Positions 37,620-52,665 of a stretch of DNA of 64,000 bases are shown piece after piece; within the stretch, counting starts at the first letter, position 1; the number at the start of each line of letters is the position of its first letter. Under the pieces are notes generated by a model. The model was not told the origin of the DNA, searched no databases, and saw only the letters and a list, made by a program, of their open reading frames with translations. Source of the DNA: Cryobacterium sp. Y11 (lineage in GTDB: Bacteria; Actinomycetota; Actinomycetes; Actinomycetales; Microbacteriaceae). Position numbers and translations under genes: made by a program. Where the stretch lies: the NCBI RefSeq assembly GCF_002929535.1, contig NZ_PJJO01000050.1, forward strand, positions 308 to 64,307, in the 5' to 3' direction.

Positions 37620-38276
37620 TCAGCGGCTACGGCGCCGGCTTGCGCGCTCAGCAGCATTCTGAAGGGCGCGGTTTAAGTCGACGATCAAACGTACGGCGGG
37701 AGCCCATTTGTTGTCCAACAGCAGTGTGTCCGAACGGACCAACCCATTCAGAGCGACGAGGACATTCGCAACCGCCCGGGGTGATCCGCAAACCTGTCGG
37801 ACGCACTCGGTGATGTCGTGCCCTTCATCGATGGTCCGAATCATCTCAACCGTCTCCACGACAGTACGGTCGACAATTCGCACGTGAAATGCCTCGGGTT
37901 TACGAGCCCGTCTGTCGTCGTACGGTGCTTTGCGGCAGCCAGGTCCACAAAAGACGCGCGGTCGTCCGGTGCCCGCGGCCGGCGGCAGCGCAACGCCACA
38001 CCGGACGCATTGGGTCGAGGTCATCCGTCGGATGGTGACTTTCTGCAGGTCGCTCATACTCAGGAGGAGCGCCAGGCTGCACAGTTTCGTCACCGACGCG
38101 AACTTCAGGTGCTTGCCGAAACGGTAAGCCGTGGGGCCTTTGCCGTGCACCCGCCAGTCGTAGACCGTGGAGATGGGGATGCCCGGGTAAGCGGCCAGCT
38201 CGGCAACGTCCATCAGGGGTTCGAGCCCCCAGTCGTCGGTGGGATGGGAGGTTAGCTTGTCGTCGTGGATACTCAT
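37620..38276 (-). CDS. Excisionase-like helix-turn-helix fused to a Cys-containing mobile-element protein
   Basis: The frame codes for about 218 residues. The first 65 carry a MerR/excisionase-type helix-turn-helix (LMDVAELAAYPGIPISTVYDWRVHGKGP, AYRFGKHLKF). Instead of the usual end after this domain, it passes through LLLSMSDLQK into a second protein (from about Met 38024): CVRCGVALPPAAGTGRPRVFCGPGCRK, a four-Cys zinc-ribbon-like motif, then a helical tail. The second part is typical of small plasmid or ICE proteins. The join is probably an accidental fusion, and the two genes may have been separate. The start has no clear ribosome site. Its coordinate could be off by one base. Confidence 0.55.
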   Translation of the reverse strand: MSIHDDKLTSHPTDDWGLEPLMDVAELAAYPGIPISTVYDWRVHGKGPTAYRFGKHLKFASVTKLCSLALLLSMSDLQKVTIRRMTSTQCVRCGVALPPAAGTGRPRVFCGPGCRKAPYDDRRARKPEAFHVRIVDRTVVETVEMIRTIDEGHDITECVRQVCGSPRAVANVLVALNGLVRSDTLLLDNKWAPAVRLIVDLNRALQNAAERASRRRSR

Positions 38277-38454
38277 GCCCAGAAGGTGTGCACGTCGATC
38301 CCGGACAATCGGGAGGTACCGAAACCGACGTCGGCGACTCGCACGAGAAGGCCGAATCACCGGCTCTGGCACTCTGAAAGTGATGGGTAGTGATGGGAAC
38401 ATCAAATCTTCAACCTAAAAAGTACTGGAAACTCTTGAGTTTCCGGGACCTTTG

Positions 38455-39022
38455 GTGGGCTGTTCACGTAACCCAGCAGGGCGCGGATCGAGAGAATACC
38501 GGGAAGTGTTTTTCCTCCACACTGCGCGCGGTTTTTCTCCAGTTCGCAGAAATCAGCACTCACCGCTTGGTCGGGATTTAGGTGACCGCGGCGCGTAGCG
38601 CGGCCCTGCGCGGCCTCCTAAACTGCCAGTAGTCACAGCGCTGTGTGTGGATGTCCTTGAGCGGTAGCAACAAATCGTCGATGATGCGGCCTCCCACGGA
38701 CGGAGGCCTCGCGAGTGGAAGCTGCCTCGTGCTTGAGCCGGCGACCGTAGCTGCGCAGGAGCAAGCGTTCGCCGCGACGGTGCTGCAGATCCAGGGCGAC
38801 ACCGTTGTGCTGGACGTCACGGAGCGCTTCGGCGGCGACGTCGCTGACCGCGTCGAGGTGGCGCAGGTCGATGCCATGACTTCAGACTTCTCGGGTGTAC
38901 CCTTCGGGGCCGGCCAGAGCTATCTCGTCGGCGCAGTCGATGGAACGATCACCGGGTGCGGCGTCACCGGGGCCGACAGTGCCGAGCTCCGCGCGATCTA
39001 CGACGCAGCGTTCCCCGGCTGA
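38455..39022. repeat. Repeat R2, shortened copy
   Basis: Position 38455-38692 matches 9001-9238, and 38685-39022 matches 10232-10569, with scattered substitutions. The join falls in the 8-mer TGCGGCCT (38685-38692). Weaker similarity continues to about 39065. Confidence 0.85.
38694..39022 (+). pseudogene. Truncated copy of the anti-sigma C-terminal domain
   Basis: The last 108 codons of the membrane protein at 9961-10569 occur here with a handful of changes (for example GTVLQIQGD for TVLSVQGD, GVPFGAGQS). The cytoplasmic part, the membrane helix and the start are missing. A frame from 38645 could express it but without export signal. Confidence 0.75.
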
Positions 39023-39359
39023 TCTACGCCCGCGAGAGCGGCTGGGGGCAACAGTGCGTGGAATCGTCCCATCTGGCATCTCGCTGCCGCGCCGCACACT
39101 GCGGCTCTGCCTGGCCGAGGAGCTGCGGCGTTTGAATCCCGACGGGGTCTTCGGCAAAACTGTTCGCAGCCTCGGCACCTCTACGGTGCATGGGAAAGCC
39201 AGGTAGAGTCAAGCGGCAGGCCACAGGAACGCGAGCGTTCCGCACTGATCGCCGTATAACGAGGGACCGCCCAGGGCCCGACGACGGGAAATACCAGCGC
39301 GTCAATTAGATTGGCGCTGGTGCCCCCACTCACCGGATTCTAGAAAGGAACCCCAAAAC
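39023..39359. other. Leader region of mscR
   Basis: 337 bp without a recognised gene. A plus-strand frame ending at 39206 (LCLAEELRRLNPDGVFG) is coherent in character but matches nothing known. The mscR ribosome site (AAAGGA) lies at its end. Confidence 0.35.
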
Positions 39360-40445
39360 ATGGTCCATAGAGTACGAGCAGTCATCGCCAGGGAAAAGGA
39401 CGCCCCGGTGTCACTGGTGACCATCCTGGTGCCGGACCCCGGTCCCGGCGAGGCCCTGGTGGACATCATCACCTGCGGAGTCTGCCACACCGACCTGCAC
39501 TACAAACAGGGCGGCATCGGTGATGACTTCCCGTACCTGCTCGGCCATGAGGCCACCGGCGTGGTCAGTGCCGTGGGCCCTGACGTCACCCAGGTGGCAC
39601 CGGGTGACCGGGTCATCCTCAACTGGCGCGCTGTCTGCGGGCAGTGCCGCGCTTGCGCCAAGGGCCAGCCGCAGTACTGCTTCAACACCCACACCGCTAC
39701 GCAGAAGATGACGCTCGAGGATGGCACCGAGCTATCGCCCGCGCTCGGGATCGGTGCCTTTGCCGAAAAGACCCTAGTGGCGGCCGGTCAGTGCACCAAA
39801 GTCGATCCCGAAGCGGATGCCGCTGCCGTCGGATTGCTCGGCTGCGGCGTGATGGCTGGCATCGGCGCCGCGATCAACACCGGTCAGGTCAAGCCGGGCG
39901 AGTCCGTTGCCGTAATCGGTTGCGGCGGCGTGGGTATCGCCGCGATTGCCGGCGCGAAGCTCGCCGGCGCCACAACCATCATCGCGGTGGACATCGACGA
40001 CAACAAGATCGCGATGGCCAGGTCGCTCGGCGCCACCCACGGGGTCAACTCCAAGGAGCACGACGCCGTCGACGCGATTCGCGCCCTGACCAACGGCAAC
40101 GGAGCGGACGTGGTGATCGACGCGGTCGGCCGCCCCGAAACGTATAAGCAGGCGTTCTACGCCCGTGACCTCGCCGGCCGGGTGGTCCTGGTGGGCGTGC
40201 CCGCACCGGACATGAAAATCGAACTGCCGCTGCTGGACGTCTTCGGCCGCGGTGGGTCCCTGAAATCCTCGTGGTACGGCGACTGCCTGCCCTCCCGCGA
40301 CTTTCCCATGCTCGTGGCCCACTACAAGCAGGGCAATCTCAACCTCGACGCCTTCGTCTCCGAGCGCATCACGATCGACCAGGTGGAAGAAGCCTTCGTC
40401 AAGATGCACGAGGGCACGGTCCTCCGCTCGGTCGTGGAGCTCTAA
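39360..40445 (+). CDS. mscR: S-(hydroxymethyl)mycothiol dehydrogenase
   Basis: The 361-residue zinc alcohol dehydrogenase matches Msc[13 protein letters not shown] with the catalytic zinc Cys and His, GHEATGVV, the structural zinc set [15 protein letters not shown], the [18 protein letters not shown] stretch typical of MscR, and the Rossmann motif [18 protein letters not shown]. It oxidises the mycothiol adduct of formaldehyde (and denitrosylates S-nitrosomycothiol) with NAD, in the cytoplasm. ATG 39360 follows AAAGGA. It overlaps the next gene in TAATG, as in mycobacteria. The presence of mycothiol chemistry marks the host as an actinobacterium. Confidence 0.92.
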
Positions 40446-41065
40446 TGGCCGTCACGATTGAAAACTTGGTCACCTCGGGAACCTTTTCGCTCGACGGCGG
40501 CACGTGGGAAGTCGACAACAACGTCTGGATCGTCGGCAACGACGAGGAATGCGTGATCATCGACTCTCCGCACGACGCCGCGGCGATCATTCGCCAGGTG
40601 CGGGGGCGCAAGGTGCTCGCCATTCTGCTCACCCACGCACACAATGACCACATCGGCGCGGCGCGGCAAGTCGCGCAGGCGGTGGGCGCTGCCATCTACC
40701 TGAACTCGGAGGACCTGATTCTCTGGGATCAGGTGTACCCCGATGTGCAGCCTGACCGGCAGCACATCGACGGGGACCTGTTCGAGGTCGGCGGGACCAC
40801 GCTGCGGGCTATCCACACGCCGGGACACTCGCCGGGGTCAACCTGCTTCTATCTCGAGAGTGAAAAAACGGTCTTCACGGGGGACACGCTGTTCCACGGC
40901 GGCCCGGGTGCAACGGGGCGGTCCTACAGCGATTACCCCACCATCCTGGCCTCAATTCGGGAACGCCTGCTGACCCTGCCGGCCGACACGGTGGTGCGCA
41001 CCGGCCATGGCGACAACACCAGCATTGCGGCCGAAAAAGAAACGCTCGCGAAGATTTCTCAGTAG
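40445..41065 (+). CDS. MBL-fold hydrolase, mscR partner
   Basis: The 206-residue hydrolase has the metal motif THAHNDH, then HTPGHSPGS, TGDTLFHGGPG and GHGDNTS. It is the partner found next to mscR in mycobacteria (the Rv2260 type), probably hydrolysing the S-formylmycothiol thioester to formate, which is inference from context. Its start overlaps the mscR stop (TAATG), so the two are translated together. Confidence 0.88.
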   Translation: MAVTIENLVTSGTFSLDGGTWEVDNNVWIVGNDEECVIIDSPHDAAAIIRQVRGRKVLAILLTHAHNDHIGAARQVAQAVGAAIYLNSEDLILWDQVYPDVQPDRQHIDGDLFEVGGTTLRAIHTPGHSPGSTCFYLESEKTVFTGDTLFHGGPGATGRSYSDYPTILASIRERLLTLPADTVVRTGHGDNTSIAAEKETLAKISQ

Positions 41066-41122
41066 TATCCCACCGCGGCCGGGCCGGCCACGGGCGGAAC
41101 GCGCGCTCACGGCATCCGCTGC

Positions 41123-41177
41123 CCGCACCGACGAAGGGCCGTACTCATGGTGTGAGTACGGCCATTCGTCGGTGCGG
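41123..41177. terminator. Long inverted repeat between convergent genes
   Basis: Nearly perfect arms at 41123-41147 and 41153-41177 form a stem of over 20 bp. No T tract follows, so it is a candidate bidirectional terminator or a processing site for the mscR transcript. Confidence 0.55.
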
Positions 41178-41183
41178 CTGCAG

Positions 41184-41868
41184 TTACCTCGAGGCCAGGA
41201 TGTCTGTTTCCTTGTGGTGCATCCAGTCCTTGAACAGCTGGGTGACCGCGCCCAGGTTGAAGGGCGGGTAATCCGTGGCGGCGATGAGCTCCCGCAGGTA
41301 GTCCGTCTGAAAGTCGGCCTCGGAATTGTGATCCGGCAGCGCGGCCAGGCGCTCAAGCCTGAGCTGGATGTTCGCCTCGCGCTCCGCCAGGGGTGGCACG
41401 GTGATCACTTCGGTCATGACGTCGCGGGCGTACCAGGCCTGCGCGTCAAACATGTTGAACGCGTAGAACTGGTCTTGGGTACCCAGGTAGAACAGGTTGG
41501 TGTTCTGCTGCCACACCACTCCCTTCTAGAGGTTGGCCGGGTGCAGCACATTGGCGTCGTGCGGTAGCTGAATGTGATGGACGCGGCGCCCATCGTGTGG
41601 GCCTGCATGCCGATACCCTCAGCGGAATAGCTACTGTCGATCATGAGCAGGTTCTTGCCGTAGAACCGCTCGGCTCCGCGAAAGTCGTGGGCGTGCAACA
41701 CTTCGCCGGGGAAGGACTTGATGCCCTTAGACTCGGGAACGGTCGGTACGGAGAAGTGGCCGGTGGCGACCACGAGCTTGTCGAAGACGTGGGTCTCGAT
41801 GATGTTGGTCTTGAGGTTCTCGACCGTCCGGGTGAATTCCTGGGTGTCCTCGTTGTAGCTGGTGCTTT
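41184..41868 (-). pseudogene. Broken flavin monooxygenase, trimethylamine-monooxygenase-like
   Basis: Reading from 41868, the minus strand gives YNEDTQEFTRTVENL, VATGHFSVPTVPES, VLHAHDFRG and SSYSAE-GMQAHTMGAASITFSYRT, all typical of trimethylamine monooxygenase. A deletion and an in-frame stop then remove about 60 residues before VVWQQNTNLFYLGTQDQFYAFNMFDAQAWYARDV in pieces at 41184-41519. The FAD-binding N-terminus is missing. It is therefore inactive. It sits between the formaldehyde and amide genes, in keeping with a methylated-amine theme. Confidence 0.75.
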
Positions 41869-41986
41869 GAGTTCTCCGGCGATGTGCCGAGGTTGCCGCT
41901 CGTCCTGGTCGGTGCCGTAGCGTAAGCCCCTTAATGCAAGAAAATGCCCCGAGTCGATCTGGTCTTGGGCTGTTCCCCAGTTGCTT

Positions 41987-42445
41987 TTAGCGGTTCTGGC
42001 TGTTTCCCGCGACGAGTTGCGTCAGTAGGCGGATGAGCTCTCGGCTTTCCTTCGGTGACAGATGGGAGGTCATCTCGGCCTCCGCCTCACGGATTAGAGG
42101 GAGCAGCTCTCGCACGAGGGAGCGTCCGCGCTTGGAGAGAAAAGCCAGCACTCGGCGCCGATCTGCGGAGTCGACGTTGCGATAGCACAGCGTCGACTCG
42201 ATAAGTTGATCGACCACTCGCGTCAGCGTTGGCCCCGTGATATTCGTCGCGGCCGCCAACTCGGCCATCGGTGACGCCGTGTGGTCGAAGAGATATGACA
42301 GTACGCGCCACTGGTCGAGGCTGATCCCATGTTCTCGGAGCCGGCGTTCGATCTGCCCCGAAAGCAGCTGGTTTGCTTGAGAAACCAGCTGTATGTTCGG
42401 TCCGTCCACGGGTAGGGTCGCGCCCTCGGAGGGTGACGCTTGCAC
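41987..42445 (-). CDS. MarR-family regulator of the amide cluster
   Basis: The 152-residue regulator has the winged-helix set (SPMAELAAATNITGPTLTRVVDQLIE) and wing (SADRRRVLAFLS). GTG 42445 is chosen because GAAAGGA lies five bases upstream. It is divergent from the amide-sensor gene, with a palindrome (42470-42492) between them, so it probably regulates that promoter. Ligand unknown. Confidence 0.8.
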   Translation of the reverse strand: MQASPSEGATLPVDGPNIQLVSQANQLLSGQIERRLREHGISLDQWRVLSYLFDHTASPMAELAAATNITGPTLTRVVDQLIESTLCYRNVDSADRRRVLAFLSKRGRSLVRELLPLIREAEAEMTSHLSPKESRELIRLLTQLVAGNSQNR

Positions 42446-42469
42446 TTTCGTCCTTTCCACGCCGGAACT

Positions 42470-42492
42470 ATCAACAATAGAATGCTGTTGAT
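42470..42492. promoter_or_regulatory. Palindromic operator between marR and the amide sensor
   Basis: ATCAACA (42470-42476) and TGTTGAT (42486-42492) are perfect inverted arms with a 9-bp spacer. They lie 25 bp before the MarR gene and 50 bp before the sensor start. Confidence 0.6.
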
Positions 42493-42540
42493 AAATTCTA
42501 AGTCGAAGTAATCCATTTGCATGCGAACAAGGGTGTTCTC

Positions 42541-43629
42541 TTGGCAAACTATAAGCGCCGACACCGACACAACGCTCCGGTCCCCGATGACACGATACGA
42601 ATCGGGTTGGCCGTTCCGCTGCAGGGGCCGGCCGGTATATTCGGGCCGTCCTGCGAGGCCATAGTCGAGTTGTGCGTTTCTGAGCTGAACGAGACGGGGC
42701 TGCTCGGCCGTCGAGTAGAGATTGAGACCATCGATGCGGGGGCACCGCCCCCGGAGATCGCCCAGACAGTGGCGAGCCTGATCGATCGCGGGCGTATCCA
42801 AGCGCTGACGGGCTGGCACATCTCATCCGTGAGAAGTCATCTCGTCCCTGTTGTGGCGGGCCGTATCCCCTACGTCTACACCTCCTTGTACGAGGGCGGG
42901 GAACGTCATCCCGGAGTCTTCTGCTCGGGGGAGACTCCCACGATGCAGATCGCGCCCGCCCTGTCCTGGCTGCGCGACCAGCTTGGCGTGCGTCGCTGGT
43001 TCATCGTGGGTGATGACTATGTGTGGCCGCGTCGTTCAGCGACCGCGGCGATGAGCTACGCGAGGGCGCTGGGGTTGCAGGTGGTCGGCTCGCAGTTCGT
43101 TCAATTCGGCACGGAGGACTTCTCGTCCCTGATCAGGCGGCTCAGCCGTTCCGGGGCAGACGGCGTGCTCATGTTCCTAGTAGGGCAAGATGCCGTTGCT
43201 TTTAATCGCGCCTTCGCACGCGAACACATGGAGCACCGTGTCATCCGCTTTTCACCGCTCATGGAGGAGAACATGCTGATCGCGTCCGGCCCCAGTGCGA
43301 TCGACGACATGTATGTCTCCGCTGGCTACTTTCGCTCGCTGTCGACGGCAGGCTCGCTCGATCTCGTCGGCGAGTACACCGACAACTTCGGAGCGGATGC
43401 GCCTCCGCTGAACAATCAGGCGGAGTCCTGCTACGAGGGCATCGCCGTTTTGGCGAACCTGATTCGTGCCGCGCAGTGCCTGGACGTGTATTGCCTGACC
43501 GCGGTGTCGGAGGGGGTCGGTTACGACGGTCCACGGGGAGCCGTCGAGTTGAGGCGCGGCCATCTTCAGCAGAAGGTGCACTTGGCGCGGGCCACCGTGG
43601 CAGACTTCGACGTGATCACGACCCTGTGA
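42541..43629 (+). CDS. AmiC-like amide/urea-type substrate-binding protein
   Basis: The 362-residue protein belongs to the type-1 periplasmic binding fold of AmiC and the urea/short-chain-amide binding proteins: IGLAVPLQGPAGIFGPSCEAIVELCV, then ALTGWHISSVRSH, FIVGDDYVWPR and FNRAFAREHM. It has no signal peptide, so like AmiC of Pseudomonas it should act in the cytoplasm as a ligand sensor. In Pseudomonas AmiC holds back the antiterminator AmiR; no AmiR gene is visible here. TTG 42541 is chosen since AAGGG precedes it; TTG 42517 is also in frame. It converges on the formamidase gene. Confidence 0.75.
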   Translation: MANYKRRHRHNAPVPDDTIRIGLAVPLQGPAGIFGPSCEAIVELCVSELNETGLLGRRVEIETIDAGAPPPEIAQTVASLIDRGRIQALTGWHISSVRSHLVPVVAGRIPYVYTSLYEGGERHPGVFCSGETPTMQIAPALSWLRDQLGVRRWFIVGDDYVWPRRSATAAMSYARALGLQVVGSQFVQFGTEDFSSLIRRLSRSGADGVLMFLVGQDAVAFNRAFAREHMEHRVIRFSPLMEENMLIASGPSAIDDMYVSAGYFRSLSTAGSLDLVGEYTDNFGADAPPLNNQAESCYEGIAVLANLIRAAQCLDVYCLTAVSEGVGYDGPRGAVELRRGHLQQKVHLARATVADFDVITTL

Positions 43630-43709
43630 GAGGGCCGCGACTACATCGAGCGGATGGTACGGCGCCGATCCATCCGGTCTTGTGCGGATTCGGCCTCCCG
43701 TCGATTCGC

Positions 43710-44960
43710 TCAGGAGGAGGCGACGGCCACCTGTCCTCGGTCGGTGTAGATCGGTCCGTCACCGTGAGGACGCACATCGAAATCGAAGATCTCGGTCGGC
43801 AGGAACACCGAGCAAGCCGCATTCGGTATGTCGACGACGCCGCCGATGCGACCCTCGATGGGGGACGTGCCGAGGATCAGGTACGCCTGCTCTCCGGTGT
43901 AACCCCACTTGGTCAGGTATTTGATCGCGTTCAGACAGGCGTTGCGGTAGGCCTCGGTGGCGTCCATGTACAGGTTTGTGTTGTCGCGGTGATCGACCGA
44001 GATCCCCACGAATGTCAGCCACTCAGAGTAGAGCGGCGCGACGCGCCCCGGCATGAAGACTGGGTTCCTGTGGATACCGTACTTCTCCATTCCTCCCTTG
44101 ATGAGGTCGACGCGCATATCGATGTAGCCACCCATTTCGATGGCACCACAAAAATTGATCTCGCCGTCGCCCTGGCTGAAGTGCAGGTCGCCGCCCGAGA
44201 GCAGCGCACCGTCAACGAAGACCGGGTAGAAGATCCTGCTGCCCCGCGAGAGGTTCTTGATGTCCATGTTGCCACCGTGCTCTCGGGGAGGAACGGTGCG
44301 CGCACCCTCGCTGGCGATGCGGTCGGCCACGGCTCCGCTTGCCGTGCCTGCGAGCGTGCCGCGGACCGTGGGTGGCAGTGCGAGTGCGGGAACACGGTGC
44401 GGGTCGGTGTCGATCAGCGCCTGCTCGCGACGGTTCCAGCTCGCCAGCAGATCGGGCGAGGGGGCCGTGCCGAAGAGTCCGGGGTGCGCGATGCCGGTGT
44501 ACTTCACCCCGGGAACGTGACGCGATGTGCAGTTTTGCCCACTGAAATCCCAGATGGCTTTGTAGGCCTCGGGGTAATAGTCGGTCAGGAACCCGCCACC
44601 GTTGACCTTCGCGAAGATACCCGAGTAGCCCCATCCTTCGCCGCAGTTTTTGCCGACGGTCTGTGGAACCGGACCGATATCGAGGATGTCGACAACGAGT
44701 AGATCGCCCGGCTCTGCCCCTTCGATTCTGATTGGTCCGGAAAGCATGTGGCAGGGGTCGAGGTCGACATGGCGAACATCGTCCGCTGAGTCGTTGTTGC
44801 CGATCTGGCCGTCCGTCCACTCCTTGCACTCGATGCGGAACTCGGCACCGGGTTTGACGGTCGCCGCCGCAGGAATGTCTGGATGCCAACGGTTGTGACC
44901 GGGAACGGCTTGCTGTGCCATGGGAAGGTTCTGATCGACGCTGAAAATGACTTCTGGCAT
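43710..44960 (-). CDS. fmdA: Formamidase/acetamidase
   Basis: The 416-residue enzyme matches the FmdA/AmdA family: the start MPEVIFSVDQ, GHNRWHPDIP, IECKEWTDGQIGNND, VHVDLDPCHMLSGPI-like segment, and the C-terminal FDFDVRP. It hydrolyses formamide (or short amides) to ammonium and formate. The length is normal. ATG 44960 follows AAGGA six bases upstream. The FmdB gene lies 47 bp upstream on the same strand and is probably co-transcribed. The amide sensor lies convergent downstream. Confidence 0.92.
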   Translation of the reverse strand: MPEVIFSVDQNLPMAQQAVPGHNRWHPDIPAAATVKPGAEFRIECKEWTDGQIGNNDSADDVRHVDLDPCHMLSGPIRIEGAEPGDLLVVDILDIGPVPQTVGKNCGEGWGYSGIFAKVNGGGFLTDYYPEAYKAIWDFSGQNCTSRHVPGVKYTGIAHPGLFGTAPSPDLLASWNRREQALIDTDPHRVPALALPPTVRGTLAGTASGAVADRIASEGARTVPPREHGGNMDIKNLSRGSRIFYPVFVDGALLSGGDLHFSQGDGEINFCGAIEMGGYIDMRVDLIKGGMEKYGIHRNPVFMPGRVAPLYSEWLTFVGISVDHRDNTNLYMDATEAYRNACLNAIKYLTKWGYTGEQAYLILGTSPIEGRIGGVVDIPNAACSVFLPTEIFDFDVRPHGDGPIYTDRGQVAVASS

Positions 44961-45007
44961 GAGTAGTCCTTAGCTGAGTATCGAGTGAATGTGCTGGTGA
45001 CGTGCCG

Positions 45008-45292
45008 TCAGTTCTTGGGGAGTCGTGGATATCGCGGGTCGCGAACCGGCCCGACCGACGCCCGTCTCGCGGACGGTACCGAGCGGACGACCTCGGGTAC
45101 TTCACTGCTTCGCCCGGCCTGAGTGAAGGCGTAGTCCAGTGCGCGTGAGCGAGACCCAAAATTAGGAGCCGTGAATACCCGAGCCGCCATCTGGCGGCAA
45201 TTCGGGCAGGAAGTATCGGAGGTATTTCCGGTAAGGGAGAGATCGGCGTCGAACTCTCCGCAATCGGGACAGCGAAATGAGTAAAGAGGGAT
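45008..45292 (-). CDS. fmdB: FmdB-family zinc ribbon protein with a non-ATG start
   Basis: The frame codes for 94 residues: PLYSFRCPDCGEFDADLSL, then CPNC, then a basic tail, matching FmdB/zinc-ribbon regulators associated with formamidase. The protein's normal first residue before PLY is Met, but here the codon is ATC (45292-45290), preceded by ATT and ATA. AGGAG sits six bases before the ATC and three before the ATT. There is no in-frame ATG, GTG or TTG in the right place. It may be started from ATC or ATT at low efficiency, or be a mutated start. Its partner is the formamidase 47 bp downstream. Confidence 0.65.
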   Translation of the reverse strand: MPLYSFRCPDCGEFDADLSLTGNTSDTSCPNCRQMAARVFTAPNFGSRSRALDYAFTQAGRSSEVPEVVRSVPSARRASVGPVRDPRYPRLPKN

Positions 45293-45480
45293 AATTATCT
45301 CCTTTCCTTTTATTCAGTTTATATTCATTTGGAAGTAAATGTCCATCGTGATACGCGATCGGATGAAGCCGGTCCCATGGTCATTCAGGAGTCCGGTCGA
45401 TACGGCTGAAGGGCAGCTCCGAAGGCACCCGGTTTCTTAAAGCGATGTATAATATTTTTATTTGAAAGTATTTTACGTCA

Positions 45481-45493
45481 ATTGAGTCTCAAT
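45481..45493. promoter_or_regulatory. Palindrome in the divergent amide promoter region
   Basis: ATTGAGTCTCAAT is a perfect palindrome around a central T, downstream of a TATAAT box at 45448-45453. It lies between the fmdB and transporter starts in an AT-rich stretch and may be an operator. Confidence 0.5.
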
Positions 45494-45567
45494 GTAGAGT
45501 CCCGATCGATCCGCGCCGATGTCTCCAACCGCCCGGATCTCACGGCACAACACTTCAAGGAGTTCTT

Positions 45568-45633
45568 ATGCTGAAGGTACGTCCCGACTTTTCTCGAAAA
45601 CGTCTGATCGCGCGGATCGAAGGCGCGTCATGA
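45568..45633 (+). CDS. Leader peptide of the transporter operon (21 aa)
   Basis: ATG 45568 with a strong AAGGAG site opens a 21-codon frame rich in Lys and Arg (MLKVRPDFSRKRLIARIEG). Its stop overlaps the transporter start (ATGA), and the transporter has only a weak site of its own. It looks like a leader for translational coupling. I do not recognise the peptide. Confidence 0.5.
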   Translation: MLKVRPDFSRKRLIARIEGAS

Positions 45634-46286
45634 CAGATCAACAGCAAAGTTCGCCATCCGCTACCGCCGTCGTTGTGACGGCGAGCGGTGTGCCGCTCGC
45701 CGTCATCGGTTTCGGCTTCGCGATCATCACCCTGTCTCTCTTCAACGTGGGCGCGCTCGCCGCCGGGGCTTTCTCCTTCTTTCCTATAGTGGCGATGGGA
45801 ACCGGGGGGTTGGCAATGCTCATCGGTGGCATCTGGGAGGCTCGCTCGGCGAACGTCTTCGGTGCGACCTTCGGGGTGGCGTACGCCTGCTTCTTGCTGA
45901 CGACAGGGGCCTTGCTGCAGTTCTTTGCTCCGGGTATCCGCGAAGCCGCAGGCGAGGTCGTGTTTAATCAGGCCTTCGCCGCTTATCTGCTCATCTGGAC
46001 CGTGTTCACGGCGGTGATGACGATCGGCTCTTTCTATGTCAACCTTCCCGCCCTTCTCGCCTTCGCGCTGCTGACCATCGTCTATCTTCTTGTCGGGCTC
46101 TCGAACCTCGTCACTGGTGATGCCTCCGTTATCCTGACGAGGATCGCCGGCTGGGCGGGGCTGCTCGACGGCGTGGCAGCCTGGTACCTGGGCCTTGGCA
46201 TCCTCTTGAATGTCATAAGTGGCAAAACCTTGATGCCGATGCGGCCGTACGTCCCCCACGCAGTATCGAATAGGAGAAAAGCATGA
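45630..46286 (+). CDS. GPR1/FUN34/YaaH family transporter
   Basis: The 218-residue protein has six membrane helices and the family pattern around SGVPLAVIGFGFAIITLSLFNVG (compare NPAPLGLxGF) and GGIWEARSANVFGATFG. This family takes up acetate, succinate or ammonium; transport of an amide or its product is inferred here. It overlaps the leader frame upstream and the hydrolase gene downstream (both ATGA), so the three are coupled. An extended start upstream at 45519 is open but lacks resemblance. Confidence 0.8.
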   Translation: MTDQQQSSPSATAVVVTASGVPLAVIGFGFAIITLSLFNVGALAAGAFSFFPIVAMGTGGLAMLIGGIWEARSANVFGATFGVAYACFLLTTGALLQFFAPGIREAAGEVVFNQAFAAYLLIWTVFTAVMTIGSFYVNLPALLAFALLTIVYLLVGLSNLVTGDASVILTRIAGWAGLLDGVAAWYLGLGILLNVISGKTLMPMRPYVPHAVSNRRKA

Positions 46287-47299
46287 CTACGGAATATGAA
46301 ACCTTCGAGCTCGGGGACATCCTCCTGCAATCGGGAATGACGCTTCGAAACGCCAAGCTCGCCTACAAGACCTTCGGGACACTCGATGCCGATAAAAGCA
46401 ATGCAATCCTCTTTCCCACCTGGTATTCGAGCTTCATCAGTGAGAATCAATGGCTCATCGGCGAGGGGATGGGCCTCGACCCGGCGAAATACTTCATCAT
46501 CGTGCCCGCCCTGTTCGGAAACGGCCAGTCCTCCTCGCCGAGCAATACGCCGGAGCCCAGCAACGGCCCACGTTTTCCCAACGTCACGATGAGCGACAAT
46601 GTGAGCTGCCAGCACCGGCTGGTCACCGAGCACTTCGGCATCGAGCACCTGCGTTTGGTGCTTGGCTGGTCCATGGGTGCAGGGCAGGCCTGGCAGTGGG
46701 GAGTGCAGTATCCCGAGATGATGGATGCGCTCCTTCCGTTCTGCGGCTCCTCGAAGACGGCGCCGCACAATGTCGTCTTTCTGGAGGGCGTCAAAGGTGC
46801 TTTAACGGCAGATGCGGCCTGGGACAACGGTTGGTACGACAAGCAGCCGAAAACGGGGCTCCGTGCGGCGGCCCGCGTCTACGCAGGCTGGGGATTCTCG
46901 CAGGCGTTTTACTGGAACGAGGAATGGCGCCAGTTGGGATATACCTCCCTGGAGGACTTTCTCGTCTCCTATTGGGAGGGGTTCTTCCTCGGTGGACGCG
47001 ACGCTAACAATCTTCTGACCGAGCTGTGGACGTGGCAACACGCCGATGTCGGGCTCACCCCGGGCTACGACGGAGACACGAAGAAAGCCTTGGGTGCGAT
47101 CACGGCACGGATCATCCAGATGCCCGGCATCAAGGATCTGTACTTCCCCCCGGAGGATGAGGATTGGGCCGCGCAGCACATCGCGAACAGCGAAGTGCGC
47201 CCGATCCCGAGCACCTGGGGCCATTTCGCCGGAATCGGAGCGAACCCCGTCGACACCGAGTTCATCGATAAGGCAGTGAAGGAACTGCTCGGCGACTAA
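46283..47299 (+). CDS. MetX-like alpha/beta hydrolase
   Basis: The 338-residue enzyme resembles homoserine O-acetyltransferase: LAYKTFGTLDADKSNAILF, the nucleophile elbow GWSMGAGQAWQWG and a His in WGHFAG, with an acidic residue in PPEDEDW. Typical MetX residues that bind homoserine cannot be confirmed. Such proteins accompany amidase and nitrilase genes and may be amidases or acyltransferases. GGAGAAAAGC lies before ATG 46283. It ends the transporter operon and is followed by a terminator. Confidence 0.7.
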   Translation: MTTEYETFELGDILLQSGMTLRNAKLAYKTFGTLDADKSNAILFPTWYSSFISENQWLIGEGMGLDPAKYFIIVPALFGNGQSSSPSNTPEPSNGPRFPNVTMSDNVSCQHRLVTEHFGIEHLRLVLGWSMGAGQAWQWGVQYPEMMDALLPFCGSSKTAPHNVVFLEGVKGALTADAAWDNGWYDKQPKTGLRAAARVYAGWGFSQAFYWNEEWRQLGYTSLEDFLVSYWEGFFLGGRDANNLLTELWTWQHADVGLTPGYDGDTKKALGAITARIIQMPGIKDLYFPPEDEDWAAQHIANSEVRPIPSTWGHFAGIGANPVDTEFIDKAVKELLGD

Positions 47300-47328
47300 C
47301 TCGTACCGCCGGGCAGCCCGGCGAACGC

Positions 47329-47369
47329 AGATGCGGCCTCACACCATTCGCTGTGAGGCCGCATCTTTT
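47329..47369 (+). terminator. Rho-independent terminator of the amide operon
   Basis: A perfect 15-bp stem (47329-47343 with 47352-47366), with an 8-base loop and a short T run. Confidence 0.8.
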
Positions 47370-47399
47370 CGAACGCGTGGGCTGATTCCCTTCGTGATG

Positions 47400-47790
47400 C
47401 TCCTGCGGCTGTCAATTGATGTTGGGTTTCCTTTCTCTCGTGGAGCCAGTCCCTGAATTGGGTAGCGAGGGTATCGTCTCGGTTGAGTCCTCGTTCGAAT
47501 CGGGAGAGAGTGCCGGGCCAAGTGTTGAAGTGGTGGAGCGTCGCGGAGGGTGATGTGGAGCTCCTGGCGCGTCCTGCGTAGGTTGGTGATTGAGTGCGGT
47601 TTTTGCGGGTCGGTTGGCTCACGGTAGAGTTCCCGGAAAATGTATCGTTTTAGGCAGCGCATGATTACCTTCTTGGTCTTGCATGGAGTCGCCAGGGAGA
47701 CGGCGTGGGCTGCTTCCTTCGGGTAGAATCGCGGCCGCGCAAAAGTGCCGAAGCGGGTGGCGACGTCGACGATGAAATTCGGGGAATCTG
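47400..47790 (-). pseudogene. C-terminal remnant of a transposase
   Basis: The minus strand reads TKKVIMRCLKRYIFRELYRE in one frame and FNTWPGTLSRFERGLNRDD in another. Together they look like the C-terminal end of an actinobacterial IS110-type transposase with a helix-turn-helix tail. The catalytic domain is absent and at least one frameshift is present. Confidence 0.45.
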
Positions 47791-47857
47791 CGTCAAGTTG
47801 AGTAAAAAAGGACGAGTCGGCTATCCGTAAAAACAAATGCGCATGACCAATTACCAC

Positions 47858-48448
47858 TCGTCATAATCGACAGCATCGGCGTGCGTTGTGACAAGTTGCA
47901 GGCGATATTCCACCTTGAGCTATCGCTATGCCGAACTCTAACGCCACAGATAGACCGAGGAGCCCGTGTCTAAGTCAGAATGATGGCTCATATTCGTCGT
48001 GCGGCGGCCGGAGTCGCTCCCGGTAGATTTCGGTTGGATTGCGCGACATACCGCCTCGTTCCACTGCGACATGAGCCTAGACAGAAACCGAACGCGAGAC
48101 CTGTCGCGGGTCTTGCCGGTTCTCTAAAATGTGTGTAGTCGAGCTTTCGCAACGCGTGACCATCCCGGGGGGGGGCGGCAGCGGAACATCGATTGTGAGA
48201 AAGCCGGGAGAATATCTGGGGTTGATAGCCATGCCCGGGCAAAGCACCACCTGCTGGATGATCGCCAGACTCTTGACTGCGCCGTGGTTCGCGGGTACTT
48301 TGCTGGAGCGCTCTGAACGCGCTAGCCGGGCTGCCTACCCATGCGCGGGGTCAGGCGGGGTCGACGCGAGCAGGGAACGCTGCCTCGGCCCCACGCCGCC
48401 TAGCGTCGTCGTCGACGACGAACTGCACAAAATCCTCGTCGCGGTCGC
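47858..48448. other. 590-bp stretch without a supported gene
   Basis: I see no recognisable frame. A run of nine Gs at 48168-48176 is unusual. Confidence 0.35.
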
Positions 48449-48892
48449 CTATGACGACGTCTTCGACTGTGTCTGGGGGCGGTTCTCCTGGCCAGACAGT
48501 CTGGCGAGTAGGCCGGTCGCGTTCCAAGCGTATCCCTGAGTCGCCACCCAGTCGCGGAGCTGCTTGCGGGCGTCGGCGTAGTCGCGGTGCCAGCCGAGCG
48601 GGGCCGAGCCGTGCTGGTCGGGGTCGTAGGCGCCGGGCCGGTGCAGGTGCAGCGCAGAGAGTTCCCAGACGAGTTCGGGGTGTCGATGCCAGAACGGTGG
48701 CACGACGGTTGCTGGCAGCCCGTAGGTGCGTTGCAGCCAGTTCACCCACCGGTTGCGTTCGATCCATTCAGCCTCAGCGTCGTGGGCATTGAGGAGGTTC
48801 CAGTTGATTTGATGCAGCGGTTCCGCGGTGAGCGGCCCGTCGAGGTTGTCCAGCGAGCTCTCTCCGAACGCGTCATTGTGATTGCCGAACAC
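48449..48892 (-). CDS. DUF4913 family protein
   Basis: The 147-residue product has the DUF4913 core: NWNLLNAHDAEAEWIERNRWVNWLQRTYGLP, PPFWHRHPELVWELSALHL and GWHRDYADARKQLRDWV (in parts). These proteins belong to actinobacterial plasmids and integrative elements and are of unknown function. A GTG at 48892 begins it. The N-terminal part before NWNLL is short. Its presence near the tRNA suggests a decayed mobile element. Confidence 0.7.
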   Translation of the reverse strand: MFGNHNDAFGESSLDNLDGPLTAEPLHQINWNLLNAHDAEAEWIERNRWVNWLQRTYGLPATVVPPFWHRHPELVWELSALHLHRPGAYDPDQHGSAPLGWHRDYADARKQLRDWVATQGYAWNATGLLARLSGQENRPQTQSKTSS

Positions 48893-49345
48893 TTCCTCGA
48901 CCTAGGATTTTGCCATTGCAACCATCACATCCGAAAACGGATAAGCCGGCGTGAGGCGCTTCCGCCTCGTGCAGAATCGCATTCTGCGTCGCCGGCGCAT
49001 CCCGTTCGGTGCCGGGAGTTCACCGCTGGGCCGCCCGATCCACCTGATAGTTCGTGCGCGCGAGGTCCTGGCCGATCCTCTTGGCGACGACGATAGGTTG
49101 TCCCTGTTTGATTCTCACGTGAGCGCGCTGGTCCGAGGTAATTGCGCGCGGCGTGCCACGTGCAATGAAGGAGGACGTGCGGCTTCACGACCGTGCCCGG
49201 CCGACGACCGTTCGGATATCGTTGATGACGATCGTTTCGGGTACTGGCACGCGCCGTCTCTCGGATTGACGATGTCGGGTCGACGCTCAGTGTTACGTCA
49301 CTCCGGAGGAAATGGGCAAATCAACCGGCAAATCAAATGGACACG

Positions 49346-49385
49346 AAAAAGTCCCGGTAGATCTCGCGATCTACCGGGACTTTTT
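49346..49385 (-). terminator. Terminator of the tRNA-Pro transcript
   Basis: An 18-bp perfect stem (49346-49363 with 49368-49385), with a run of five A on the plus strand that is T on the tRNA strand. It lies a few bases after the tRNA 3' end. Confidence 0.85.
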
Positions 49386-49392
49386 CGTTTGG

Positions 49393-49466
<74 letters not shown>

Positions 49467-49641
49467 CTGCTTCCACAACGCGATTTCAAGATTCGAAACC
49501 TGCGGAAGACAACTGTAAGAGCTTACCGCTTTCTAAGAGGACCCAAGAACACCTGGCTGGCGATCACCCCGCGGGTGAACCCGGTCGCCATGGCGGGGTT
49601 GTCCTTCCCTGGTGGCGTCAAAATACCGTGGCGGCTATCAG

Positions 49642-49662
49642 ACCGTCAAATAGCTTGACGGT
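49642..49662. promoter_or_regulatory. Operator of the hipBA-like locus
   Basis: ACCGTCAA (49642-49649) and TTGACGGT (49655-49662) form a perfect palindrome. Further ACCGTCA and CCGTCA half-sites follow up to the ribosome site, so a HipB-type repressor would bind cooperatively. Confidence 0.65.
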
Positions 49663-49712
49663 AATAACGCCGTCAGATTACATGAAGGTAATAAGACCGT
49701 CAGGAGGCGATT

Positions 49713-49985
49713 ATGGTGGCAGCACGAGGAGAAGTGAAAAGCATCGAGGCTCTCGGTCATATGCTGCAGCGAGGGCGCCTGGTTAGCGGGCTCACGCAAC
49801 GACAGCTCGCTGGCAAGCTCGAGACCGACCAGAAATATGTCTGGGCTGTGGAGTCGGGCAAGAACACCATCATTCTCGAGTGCATTTTCGCGATCATGCG
49901 AGAGACCGGAGTGCGGATGTATATGAAGATCGACTTCCCATCCGATGATTCTGTCGCCGACGTCAAGGACGAACCCCGTGGCTGA
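49713..49985 (+). CDS. hipB: HipB-type Xre antitoxin
   Basis: The 90-residue protein has a helix-turn-helix (LTQRQLAGKLETDQKYVWAVESGK), as in HipB antitoxins, which also repress their own operon. AGGAGG lies before ATG 49713. It overlaps the hipA remnant by 8 bp. Because the toxin is broken, it may have been kept as a repressor only. Confidence 0.85.
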   Translation: MVAARGEVKSIEALGHMLQRGRLVSGLTQRQLAGKLETDQKYVWAVESGKNTIILECIFAIMRETGVRMYMKIDFPSDDSVADVKDEPRG

Positions 49986-50645
49986 CCTGCGGGTCGAGCT
50001 CTACGGTGAGCTGGTCGGGCATCTAGTCGGGCACGATCGCAGCGAGTTCGATTTCGTCGCCAGCAGAAACGCGATTGACACTTTTGGGCTCGGCAGTAAA
50101 GTCCTCTCCGAGTCGGTGCCCTCGACATCCACGCGAATCGCAATCGGGCTGCACGTCGCCGAAATTTCTTTGCCGAGTTGCTTCACGAGGGGCAGCACTC
50201 GACAATCTCACCGCCGAGGTCCGAGGTCCGAGTTTCGACCGGCGACGTTGCTGCGGACGTTCAGGTCAGGGTCTCACAGGCCGTGAGAAACCACGACCTG
50301 CACGGCAAGAACATCAGCATGTTGCACATGCCCAATGGCACCACGTGGATCGCCCCGGCCTACGATGCTGTGCCGCAAACTCACCTCGACAGCGGCGGCA
50401 AAATGGCGCTGGCCATCAATCATAAGTATCTGCACGCCGCACTCACGATTGACGATCTCGTTGCAGAAGGCGAGGCCTGGAAGGTGCGGTCACCGCGAGC
50501 GGTCATCACCTCAGCGCTCGAGGCTGTTGACCTGTTCGTTCGCACGGAAAACTTCGTCGAGAACGCTTGCGCAGGGCTGCAGCACGACGTCTCCAGGTTC
50601 ACCAGAAATCTGCTCGATGGCCGCGCGACCGGCGACGGCGAGTAG
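49978..50645 (+). pseudogene. hipA: Broken HipA-type kinase toxin
   Basis: From GTG 49978 the HipA N-terminus is intact (ADLRVELYGELVGHLVGHDRSEFDF, FGLGSKVLSES), then a frame change and a large deletion follow. Later, from 50178, the C-terminal part appears (NHDLHGKNISMLH with the catalytic Asp-His-Asn motif, APAYDAVP, GGKMALAINHK). The ATP-binding lobe between them is missing. Kinase activity is not expected. Confidence 0.8.
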
Positions 50646-50685
50646 TTCGTGCACAACCAAGCTGCTCGCTAGGCTGAACGGCATC

Positions 50686-51453
50686 ATGCATATTCGAGAC
50701 ATTGGCGTATCGCCGCTCAAGGGTGGCCGCCACCAGCCACGGGAGAACGTTCTGCTCGCGGTTGACGGTCCAATCGGCGACCGCGACTTCGCGGTCGTCG
50801 ATCGGGATGCCGGCACAATTCTAAAGACGGTTGAGCATCCGCTTCTGGTGACGTGTGAGGCACAGTGGGTTGACGGGGTGCTTGCCGTCAAGCTCGATGG
50901 CCGCCGCGTTGCTGCGGAACCCGAAATGACGGGCGAGTATCTCGACCTGGACTACTGGGGTCGATCCACCGCCATGCACGTGGTCGCGGGGCCGTGGGCG
51001 CGAGAATTCTCGCAGCTGCTGGGGCGCAGCGTCATCCTCACGCGCAGCGTGACAGCGGGAGCCGTGGTGTACGGCGATTCCGTCACGATCAGCACGACGA
51101 GCTCGCTTGCCCGGCTGGCCGCCGAATCCGGGATCGCGGTCGATCCGCGCCGGTTCCGTTCCACCTTCACGATTGATACCGGCGACGCCGACGCGCACGT
51201 CGAAGACTCCTGGGCTGGGCGTGAACTCGAGCTGGGGGGAGCCCGACTCCTCGTGAAGGGTGGCATTCCCCGGTGCGCGGTCATCGATATCGACCCCGAC
51301 ACCGGTGCTCGCGGAACACGCCTGCTGAAAACTCTCGCCGGCTACCGGCTGCAGGCCAGCGACATTATGTTCGGCGTTTACGCCGAGGTGATCCGCCCTG
51401 GAACAGTGTCTGTCGCAGACGGCGTGCGGCTATCGACAGTGTCACCCCGCTGA
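50686..51453 (+). CDS. MOSC domain protein
   Basis: The 255-residue protein has an N-terminal beta-barrel domain (ISPLKGGRH, GDRDFAVVD) and a MOSC domain (FRSTFTIDTG, LLVKGGIPRCAVIDIDPDTG with the conserved Cys). MOSC proteins handle molybdenum cofactor sulfur or reduce N-hydroxylated compounds. The start ATG 50686 has a weak ribosome site. No Mo-cofactor genes are nearby. Confidence 0.8.
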   Translation: MHIRDIGVSPLKGGRHQPRENVLLAVDGPIGDRDFAVVDRDAGTILKTVEHPLLVTCEAQWVDGVLAVKLDGRRVAAEPEMTGEYLDLDYWGRSTAMHVVAGPWAREFSQLLGRSVILTRSVTAGAVVYGDSVTISTTSSLARLAAESGIAVDPRRFRSTFTIDTGDADAHVEDSWAGRELELGGARLLVKGGIPRCAVIDIDPDTGARGTRLLKTLAGYRLQASDIMFGVYAEVIRPGTVSVADGVRLSTVSPR

Positions 51454-51657
51454 ATTCAGTCAGCACTCTGAGCGCACGGCAATCATCGCCCGCCTTCTTC
51501 AGTCGCTCGTCGGTCAGCTGGTAGCTCACTGCCGCACCGGAATCACCGGCGGTCGTCTCACCTCACGGCACGTATCCGAGAAGCCGGCACGTGTTCCAAC
51601 CAGTGCCACGGGGGCAAACACGTGCCGCGAGGAGGCGACAAGGAGAGACGGCGCGGT

Positions 51658-52665
51658 TTAGCGGCGGATTTCTGCGTCGGCGCGCAGCCGGATCAGCCGC
51701 TGCGGGCCATCCTCTTTCAGCTCGGCTAGGTCGCTGCGCGAGGAGAGAAAGTCGGTGAAGGAACGAAAACCGAGCGGCTTCTCATTGAAGGACGGGTCCA
51801 TGCGGCGCATCTGGTTCTTGATCGTGCCCGTGTTGAGCCACTCGTCGGCATCGCCCTTGGCGTGACCGATCTGCAGCGCTCGCACCAGGAGCTCTGTGGC
51901 CAGAGTCTGTGGGTCAATGTCGTCGCCGGCCTCAGGCTCGTCTAACTGCGCGTCCTCGGTGTGCGAGAACATGGGATTAGTGGCGAACAGACGGGCCTGG
52001 ATGGGTGCCGGGTCGGGCACGGTCTCGGCGGGTTCCGGAGCCTTTCTGCTGGCCTTGGGCCTGCCAGCGGCGGCTGTCGCGGTGGCGTTGTCGATTCCGG
52101 GTAGCGAGTCGTAGTCCTCGAACTCGTCGCATGCCGCCGCCAGCGACGTGCTGGTCGACCCCGCGACACCGATGCCCACCACGAAACGACCCAGCCGCTT
52201 CGATTTCTGGGCCAAGGCGATGTAGTCGGAATCGCCAGCGATGATGATGACGTGGGTCAAATCGGGCAGCCGAAAGAGGTCTTCGACCACGTCGACGGCC
52301 AAACGGATGTCCGCACCGTTCTTGGTTCCGCGGGTGGTGGTGGTGAACAGCTGAGTCAGGTCCACAGCGCGCGACATGAGCTGGCGCTGGTAACTCGCGT
52401 TGACGGGAACGGACCAATCGGCGTAGGCACGATTGACGACCAGGGTGCCAAATGACGCCGCAAAGTCGATGATCGCGTTGAAGTCCACCGTCGCGGCGGT
52501 GAGGCGCGCGGCGATCTCGGGGTCGGCATCCGCACTCGACTTATTGAAATTGCGGATGCCGTCGCGCTGAAACGCATTGCGCCCGTGCAGCTGCTGATAC
52601 CGCGAGATGACGATGTTGTCGAAGTCGATATAGAGGCCGACGCGCGCATCGTTGGGTTCAGTCAT
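51658..52665 (-). CDS. NYN ribonuclease-like protein with LOTUS domain
   Basis: The 335-residue protein has an N-terminal NYN (PIN-like) domain with the acidic residues YIDFDNI and IIAGDSDYIAL, and a C-terminal OST-HTH/LOTUS-like domain (ATELLVRALQIGHAKG, DFLSSRSDLAEL). NYN proteins are RNA-cleaving or RNA-binding. A Pro/Ala-rich linker joins the two domains. AAGGAG precedes ATG 52665. Typical of actinobacteria and close to the usual length. Confidence 0.85.
   Translation of the reverse strand: MTEPNDARVGLYIDFDNIVISRYQQLHGRNAFQRDGIRNFNKSSADADPEIAARLTAATVDFNAIIDFAASFGTLVVNRAYADWSVPVNASYQRQLMSRAVDLTQLFTTTTRGTKNGADIRLAVDVVEDLFRLPDLTHVIIIAGDSDYIALAQKSKRLGRFVVGIGVAGSTSTSLAAACDEFEDYDSLPGIDNATATAAAGRPKASRKAPEPAETVPDPAPIQARLFATNPMFSHTEDAQLDEPEAGDDIDPQTLATELLVRALQIGHAKGDADEWLNTGTIKNQMRRMDPSFNEKPLGFRSFTDFLSSRSDLAELKEDGPQRLIRLRADAEIRR

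Follow-up and report, generated by a model that had tools for sequence, protein, structure and literature searches.

Relation to described amide switches

In Mycobacterium smegmatis, AmiA is a negative regulator and AmiC and AmiD are positive regulators of an inducible amidase (PMC12719403, available excerpt), and the gene set amiC, amiA, amiD, amiS and amiE is also named in excerpts of PMC5861769 and PMC11005228. An expression vector lacking amiD and amiS was made with this system (PMC12719403, same excerpt); AmiS was therefore not counted as defining the mycobacterial regulon. In Pseudomonas, AmiR is a positive regulator that AmiC keeps silent (PMC13209695, available excerpt).

We analysed a 64,000-nucleotide stretch of the Cryobacterium sp. 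Y11 genome (the window), in which six genes form a small set for formamide use, probably under the control of a repressor and a separate intracellular amide sensor (Table 1). As in the mycobacterial AmiA/AmiC regulon, a repressor gene lies beside the gene for an AmiC-like sensor, both here and in 57 further loci. The window differs from M. smegmatis in that fmdBA is convergent with the sensor gene and AmiS is not near (no match in 36001-52000), and it adds genes for a YaaH-family transporter and a MetX-like hydrolase. We take AmiA to be MarR-type, AmiD to be FmdB-like and the mycobacterial gene order to be amiC / amiA-amiD-amiS-amiE; one genome of the class (L058) has the matching order sensor / MarR-FmdB-AmiS-FmdA, with the box described below between MarR and FmdB. 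The earlier note had proposed a different sensing design, but AmiA and AmiC of M. smegmatis already follow this logic genetically (PMC12719403, available excerpt), and two Rhodococcus nitrile hydratase plasmids carry the pair. A new design is thus not supported, and the island is closer to the mycobacterial system than to that of Pseudomonas.

Gene layout of the island

The gene content and families given in the earlier note were borne out by profile matches plus an FmdB-like ORF, but its count of three transcripts was not, as the layout implies four: MarR (-), sensor (+), fmdB-fmdA (-) and transporter-hydrolase (+). The transporter and hydrolase genes overlap by 4 nt; elsewhere in the window, an MsbA-type exporter is encoded at 26344-28491. 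No ATG, GTG or TTG is available to fmdB, which starts at ATC, and its copies in two sibling loci, Cryobacterium Y50 (L036) and Y29 (L038), are 90-91% identical. The closest named relatives belong to Cryobacterium, and these siblings and Y57 (L037) were used for conservation. In one other locus (L064), a relative of the MetX-like hydrolase adjoins fmdA, fmdB and the sensor.

Table 1. Features of the formamide island (positions in the window)
Feature	Positions	Strand	Details
MarR-family repressor	41987..42445	-	152 aa; GTG start (most likely); PF01047 37.1 bits over 41987-42457
Inverted repeat TATCAACA-N9-TGTTGATA	42469..42493	.	perfect; 8-bp arms, 9-bp spacer
Weak 22-bp box match, MarR-sensor gap	42492..42513	-	12.4 bits; rank 5 in the window
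Amide/urea-type sensor	42541..43629	+	362 aa; TTG start; PF13458 261 bits
fmdA, formamidase	43710..44960	-	NF045496 642 bits (cut-off 500)
fmdB, small Cys-pair protein	45008..45292	-	ATC start codon; in-frame reading
Promoter-like TGGACA-N18-TAAACT before fmdB	45316..45345	-	contains the 45319-45340 box
Box ATTTACTTCCAAATGAATATAA, before fmdB	45319..45340	-	18.7 bits; second-best place in the window
Box AAATACTTTCAAATAAAAATAT, fmdB-transporter gap	45452..45473	-	27.4 bits; best place in the window
GPR1/FUN34/YaaH (acetate uptake) transporter	45630..46286	+	NF038013 87.2 bits (cut-off 50); PF01184
MetX-like alpha/beta hydrolase	46283..47299	+	NF005757 509 bits (cut-off 332)

The MarR gene most likely starts at GTG 42445 rather than at the ATG at 42826 that opens the listed ORF, a reading based on the Shine-Dalgarno sequence GGAAAGGA and on a 152-aa counterpart ORF in Y50. 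The gap between this start and the sensor gene holds the perfect inverted repeat of Table 1. Arms of this length arose in 3% of 200 shuffles of the 200-nt stretch that contains it. In Y50 the repeat has one mismatch, and Y57 and Y29 lack it. The operator palindrome that the earlier note placed at 42470-42492 therefore exists as a repeat but is not conserved even within Cryobacterium, and it was rejected as an operator. The same gap contains a weak box match, whose sibling counterparts score 6.7 (Y50), 6.3 (Y57) and 5.9 bits (Y29).

The sensor is an AmiC-like protein without a leader

The structure model of the sensor (pLDDT 90.9) matched urea-binding protein 8tg1 with Z 44.1 and AmiC 1pea with Z 42.7 (341 residues superposed with an rmsd of 1.9). 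The fold is thus common to the sensor and P. aeruginosa AmiC, and both are leaderless. The pocket positions of AmiC, which we take to be Ser85, Tyr104 and Tyr150, align with Ser95, Tyr113 and Tyr160 of the sensor. By sequence, the sensor is closer to urea-binding proteins than to AmiC (205.9 bits to 8tg1), and its ligand could therefore be urea. An in-frame TTG at 42517 is an alternative to the start given in Table 1.

UrtA and related urea-binding proteins, the closest to the sensor in both sequence and fold, are secreted parts of ABC importers, whereas the sensor is leaderless and adjoins a repressor gene. Hydrophobicity and reading by eye revealed no signal peptide on it, nor on any other of the 57 sensors that could be judged among the 58 actinobacterial loci analysed (in Y57 the start codon is lost), with start codons uncertain for several; here the earlier note was right. 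It is very unlikely that the sensor is an ordinary ABC-transporter binding protein that has lost its leader or had it annotated wrongly, although the nearest solved sequences are indeed periplasmic urea-binding proteins. Seven of eight lower-scoring transporter-type paralogues do carry a signal peptide, as do all three binding proteins encoded downstream of plasmid sensors; the sensor scored 156 bits against the urea importer model TIGR03407 (cut-off 492.75); and no Urt/Liv-type importer permease was found among the window proteins scanned, which represent part of the ORFs.

The MarR gene is the constant neighbour of the sensor

When gene order was compared across actinobacterial genomes, as the earlier note had suggested, the sensor-MarR part of the arrangement persisted and the enzyme genes varied. 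A MarR gene adjoined the sensor gene in 58/58 loci (divergent in 54), and the same loci encoded formamidase (17), aliphatic amidase (14) or neither (27), with AmiS in 23. This set may include the same species more than once, so its members are not fully independent. It excludes L055 (a 352-bit urea type without MarR), L093 (404 bits, with MarR flanked by two sensor-like genes), nine weaker matches (141-208 bits) and L095, the urea-type homologue of this genome. On plasmids, MarR adjoined the sensor in 10 of 12 regions, hand-chosen among 60 listed of 796 records; those ten sensors are leaderless, and the sensors of the two regions lacking MarR have a leader. Distance correlations were not decisive: 0.76 for sensor and MarR over 57 loci, 0.87 for sensor and MarR versus 0.47 for sensor and FmdA at formamidase loci, and 0.91-0.96 for every pair at amidase loci.

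Rhodococcus plasmids pRJH2 and p1 of Rhodococcus sp. M8 carry a sensor-class protein gene and a MarR gene beside nthBA. The NhhC/NhhD proteins of the Rhodococcus J1 nitrile hydratase cluster are presumably comparable to the sensor-MarR pair. These clusters differ from the island in their enzyme, nitrile hydratase, in a convergent MarR gene and in an extra ArsR gene.

As MarR is the constant neighbour of the sensor, the best reading of the gene arrangement is that the sensor would act on MarR. Direct binding of a small ligand is the usual mode of MarR proteins, which speaks for a simpler scheme in which MarR itself binds amide, formate or another inducer and the sensor merely gives support, for example by buffering amide. 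We consider this scheme unlikely. It leaves unexplained why MarR stays beside all 58 sensors while the enzymes change, and why AmiC is a positive regulator in M. smegmatis (PMC12719403, available excerpt).

No AmiR-type partner lies near the sensor

Unlike Pseudomonas AmiC-AmiR, the window sensor neighbours MarR, and no ANTAR partner is nearby. The earlier note saw no AmiR/ANTAR gene, and the wider search agreed: no ANTAR match was found on the contig of the window, and no ANTAR ORF adjoined the sensor in any of the 58 loci, two of which had one at a distance of at least 6 kb. The whole genome gave five matches, three on contig C54 and two on C21. All 45 relatives searched have ANTAR matches. 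The profile used on the 58 loci was built from these five matches of the genome, which makes their recovery a trivial control; its matches in L067 and L075 coincided with PF03861 places among the matches listed, which is a better one. An antiterminator encoded elsewhere could in principle serve the sensor in these genomes, but the distances described above make such a partner highly improbable. Consistent with this, no Rfam match was found in 41500-47500, with the caveat that the ami leader is possibly absent from Rfam. The sole terminator-like site in 42380-45700 falls within the sensor gene.

A 22-bp box accompanies the sensor-MarR pair

We identified a 22-bp palindromic box with a consensus of about TACTTYC-N4-GRAAGTA. 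We built a model on 13 sites taken from other genera and scanned the window with it; the two best places both lay upstream of island genes (Table 1). The box in the fmdB-transporter gap has a 24.2-bit counterpart in Y50; the box before fmdB recurs as the same 22-mer in Y29 and scores 13.8 bits in Y50. The latter is contained in a promoter-like site, of which 42380-45700 has five compared with 1.0 expected from shuffles. A pattern scan of the window revealed two exact matches, both of them the island boxes, and 10 matches with up to two mismatches versus 3.4 expected, a scan that is not independent since the pattern was widened to fit the sites of the window.

By length, 1.4 of the 45 untrained loci would be expected to have their best box site within a promoter zone. 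It lay there in 20, under a zone rule set after the box matches had been inspected, and outside the zone in 25. Across 200 column-permuted models, at most 15 loci had their best site in the zone. The zone means of these models (5.6 and 6.3) also exceeded the length expectation, and AT-richness therefore explains part of the excess. Arm symmetry of the untrained matches was discounted, as the model itself is palindromic. There was no convincing box at L037, L060, L066, L067, L073, L076, L079, L080 or L082. In L074, a 32-bit box lies 13 nt upstream of a nitrile hydratase beta ORF.

The box tracked the pair at fmdA. In 30 places scanned of 35 found (five were left out), the median best score was 17.1 bits for pair-linked fmdA (8 loci) versus 3.1 bits for unlinked fmdA (22 loci; P = 0.001). 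Five of the eight linked loci exceeded 14 bits, with L123 (0.2 bits) as an exception. The unlinked loci included a single high score (L098, 26.3 bits) and one moderate score (L119, 12.3 bits). The genome of L098 has the pair on another contig, and a diffusible factor from that pair would allow a box there; overall, a box was found at one of six unlinked fmdA loci with the pair elsewhere in the genome (L098).

These data bear on whether the box could instead serve a different regulator, for example a protein of nitrogen control, with the target of MarR elsewhere. The box is AT-rich and lies in promoters, amides are nitrogen sources, and the genome-wide count showed no enrichment (20 consensus matches and 20 for the reversed control), so the consensus alone defines no regulon. 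A general nitrogen box, however, should not track the MarR-sensor pair as this one does at linked and unlinked fmdA, and we regard another regulator as quite improbable. The GlnR-type nitrogen box was considered and set aside, as its spacing and symmetry differ.

Proposed mechanism and implications

The sequence evidence covers the genes, the pairing, the missing leader, the lack of a nearby AmiR, and the box with its association to the pair. That MarR is the box-binding protein, what the ligand is and that sensor and MarR are in direct contact are what we infer beyond it. We favour, with reasonable confidence, a formamide-inducible nitrogen-scavenging island run by a two-protein MarR/sensor switch, since MarR remains adjacent at every sensor locus analysed while the enzymes vary and since M. 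smegmatis genetics make AmiA negative and AmiC positive (PMC12719403, available excerpt). MarR would act as a repressor by binding the predicted box at the promoter of fmdBA and in the gap between fmdB and the transporter gene, and perhaps also, weakly, the box that separates its own gene from that of the sensor. The leaderless sensor would bind formamide or another small amide inside the cytoplasm, and the amide-loaded form would antagonise MarR and so open the genes, whereupon formamidase would yield formate and ammonia. If this model is right, the sign is inverted relative to Pseudomonas AmiC-AmiR, as the sensor would relieve a repressor.

No description of the shared box, of the wide sensor-MarR coupling or of sensor-MarR contact was found in the literature searched, which lay outside the primary M. 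smegmatis papers. The evidence leaves evenly balanced a broader proposal, in which a wide class of MarR repressors would not read its inducer unaided but would rely on a dedicated binding protein in the cytoplasm, one captured from the family of urea/amide importers. The pair would form a portable amide switch, opposite in sign to Pseudomonas AmiC-AmiR. It would accompany genes for formamidase, amidase, nitrile hydratase or ABC import, both in Actinobacteria and on certain plasmids of proteobacteria, and much of the actinobacterial set would have the box in common. MarR under the control of a binding protein would be unusual. The box offers a concrete DNA target and a route to regulon searches, and amide-inducible expression tools could derive from the switch. 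If the proposal is true, the mycobacterial system becomes a general, testable module, and a single receptor type serves two unrelated outputs, AmiR or MarR, with opposite sign.

Adjoining sensor and MarR genes in genomes and plasmids

Sensor genes scoring above 430 bits were analyzed at 58 loci, comprising the window, L036-L054 (n = 19) and L056-L092 plus L094 (n = 38), where L numbers denote loci or regions fetched from other genomes or plasmids. A MarR match adjoined the sensor at all 58 loci and was divergent at 54, with other orientations at L069, L070, L074 and L078. The associated enzymes varied (formamidase at 17 loci, aliphatic amidase at 14, neither at 27), as did AmiS (23), an AAA gene (14) and FmdB (17); among loci with neither enzyme, L074 carried nitrile hydratase alpha and beta genes, L068 an amidase-family gene and L062 an importer permease. 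MarR was the one constant neighbour.

Twelve regions were picked by choice from 60 listed of 796 matching plasmid records and read. MarR adjoined the sensor in 10, from three Rhodococcus plasmids (these carry genes for amidase or nitrile hydratase), R. jostii RHA1, Corynebacterium, Arthrobacter, Agrobacterium, Aminobacter, Klebsiella and Sulfitobacter; the Variovorax and Burkholderia sensors had no MarR beside them and lay inside ABC operons. All 10 MarR-linked plasmid sensors lacked a leader, and both others carried one. On the Agrobacterium, Klebsiella and Sulfitobacter plasmids (L133, L135, L137), genes for a secreted binding protein and for ABC import lie downstream of the leaderless sensor with its MarR. 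Class-wide, 46 of 394 genomes gave a match with an E-value no higher than 1e-40; in the window's family, none of the 20 other genomes listed had a sensor of this class, although a 164-bit relative occurred in one. The patchy distribution, together with the presence on plasmids, hints at lateral spread.

Sensor properties

Leaders were judged from hydrophobicity and by eye, with start choice uncertain for several sensors. By this measure no leader with a lipobox was seen on 57 of the 58 sensors, the remaining one (L037, Cryobacterium sp. Y29) having no start codon, compared with a leader on 7 of 8 lower-scoring paralogues (exception, the 350-bit gene of L093). ANTAR ORFs occurred at only two of the 58 loci (L067 and L075), at least 6 kb away from the sensor.

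The sensor belongs to PF13458 (261 bits), and its closest sequences are urea-binding proteins of the periplasm (8tg1, 205.9 bits; UrtA chains, 166-170 bits), followed by AmiC (137 bits). Structural alignment of its AlphaFold2 model (pLDDT 90.9) gave Z 44.1 against 8tg1 (1.8 A over 343 residues) and Z 42.7 against AmiC (1pea; 1.9 A over 341 residues). Sensor Ser95, Tyr113 and Tyr160 align with the AmiC pocket residues Ser85, Tyr104 and Tyr150; across 46 aligned sensors, Ser95 and Tyr160 were invariant and Tyr113 was conserved in at least 90%. The ligand is likely an amide or urea.

A shared DNA box

Thirteen loci have approximately ACTTYCANNTGRAA in common in the gap between MarR and sensor. 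A 22-position model was built from these sites (eight Mycolicibacterium or Mycobacterium loci and one other, plus Prauserella, Amycolatopsis, Qaidamihabitans and Actinosynnema), excluding window data, and scanned over the 64-kb window. The top place was 45452, which scored 27.4 bits on one strand and 20.6 on its complement, followed by 45319 (18.7 bits). The site in the MarR-sensor gap, 42492, ranked fifth (12.4 bits). The palindrome called in the earlier note was not upheld as an operator. A promoter-like TGGACA-N18-TAAACT encloses the fmdB box site.

Under a promoter-zone rule drawn up after the hits had been inspected, the best site fell within the zone in 20 of 45 untrained loci (window included), compared with 1.4 expected by length and with maxima of 14 and 15 (means 5.6 and 6.3) in two sets of 100 column-permuted controls. 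Widening the zone by 220 nt behind the sensor, also post hoc, gave 33 of 45 (control maximum 20). A box started 45-49 nt upstream of FmdB in L039, L041, L049, L056 and L058, and the box also preceded amidase genes on the pNit and pRHL2 plasmids; scores in proteobacterial plasmid regions were at most 15.3 bits. Two family-f24 loci, L084 and L085, have a variant box, AAAAGTTTTC-N4-GAAAACTT, directly behind the sensor; in the recognition-helix region of MarR they have HPTLTKAID where the window has GPTLTRVVD. From these sequences, box and helix possibly co-vary.

Among fmdA genes of the class, the median best upstream box score was 17.1 bits for those linked to the pair (n = 8, window included) and 3.1 for unlinked genes (n = 22; P = 0.001), with exceptions at L123 (linked, 0.2 bits) and L119 (unlinked, 12.3 bits). 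Six of the 22 unlinked genes came from genomes where the pair lies at another place (G383, G139, G314, G315, G131 and G182), and only L098 of G383 had a high-scoring box (26.3 bits), which fits a diffusible regulator; the five box-less genes would lie outside the regulon.

In Y29 (L037, 5620-7514) the module has broken down in nature. Its MarR has an in-frame deletion across the DNA-binding part, the sensor start codon is missing, only residues 304-416 of the first fmdA are left, and no box was found (best 6.3 bits). These parts appear to have decayed together.

Organization of the island

Contig C29, which carries the window, belongs to a 4.03-Mb genome; the closest named matches were Cryobacterium sp. 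Y50, Y29 and Y57 (sensor identity 93-95%). Strand and spacing of the island genes imply four transcripts, not the three previously proposed.

Genes of the amide island (window coordinates)
Gene	Position	Strand
MarR	41987-42445	-
Sensor	42541-43629	+
fmdA	43710-44960	-
fmdB	45008-45292	-
GPR1/FUN34/YaaH transporter	45630-46286	+
MetX-like hydrolase	46283-47299	+

The transporter profile matched only the window among 60 stretches scanned; at L064 a MetX-like gene also adjoins fmdA, fmdB and the sensor. The fmdB start (45290-45302, -) reads GGAG, six bases, ATC and a Pro codon. The apparent ATC start is kept in all three copies of this fmdB version (window, Y50 and Y57), and in Y29 and Y57 the second fmdB begins with ATG; an AUC start codon, if conserved, would be rare.

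Close to the island, 39360-41065 (+) encodes a formaldehyde dehydrogenase of the mycothiol-dependent type (TIGR03451, 663 bits) together with a protein of metallo-beta-lactamase fold, a possible C1 neighbourhood. A choline-dehydrogenase-like gene precedes a gene for a StyD-type phenylacetaldehyde dehydrogenase (894 bits against a cut-off of 800) at 32971-36055 (+). A flavin-binding monooxygenase-like fragment at 41187-41773 (-; PF00743, 25 bits, 41417-41773), overlapped by an ORF in another frame, looks like a decayed gene. A tRNA-Pro (49390-49466, -) lies about 2 kb past the island and is a possible insertion site.

Proposed regulation

MarR would repress the island genes, and the amide-loaded sensor would act as an anti-repressor that relieves MarR. 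This scheme accounts for most of the observations and matches M. smegmatis genetics; we infer sensor-MarR contact, MarR binding at the box and the identity of the ligand. Because the box was missing from five of the six unlinked fmdA genes whose genomes carry the pair, and the zone rule was post hoc, our confidence in this explanation was lowered very slightly and that in two rivals raised by still less.

AmiA of M. smegmatis is negative, AmiC and AmiD are positive, and a vector lacking amiD and amiS was built (PMC12719403). In Pseudomonas-type systems, AmiC silences the positive regulator AmiR (PMC13209695); if the anti-repressor model holds, the receptor's sign would therefore be inverted here. 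The proposed design with the sensor acting on MarR is likely right, but it is not new, since the AmiA/AmiC logic of M. smegmatis agrees with it. Taken together, the original observation of the island was largely right, and what goes beyond the known system is the wide sensor-MarR coupling and the box.
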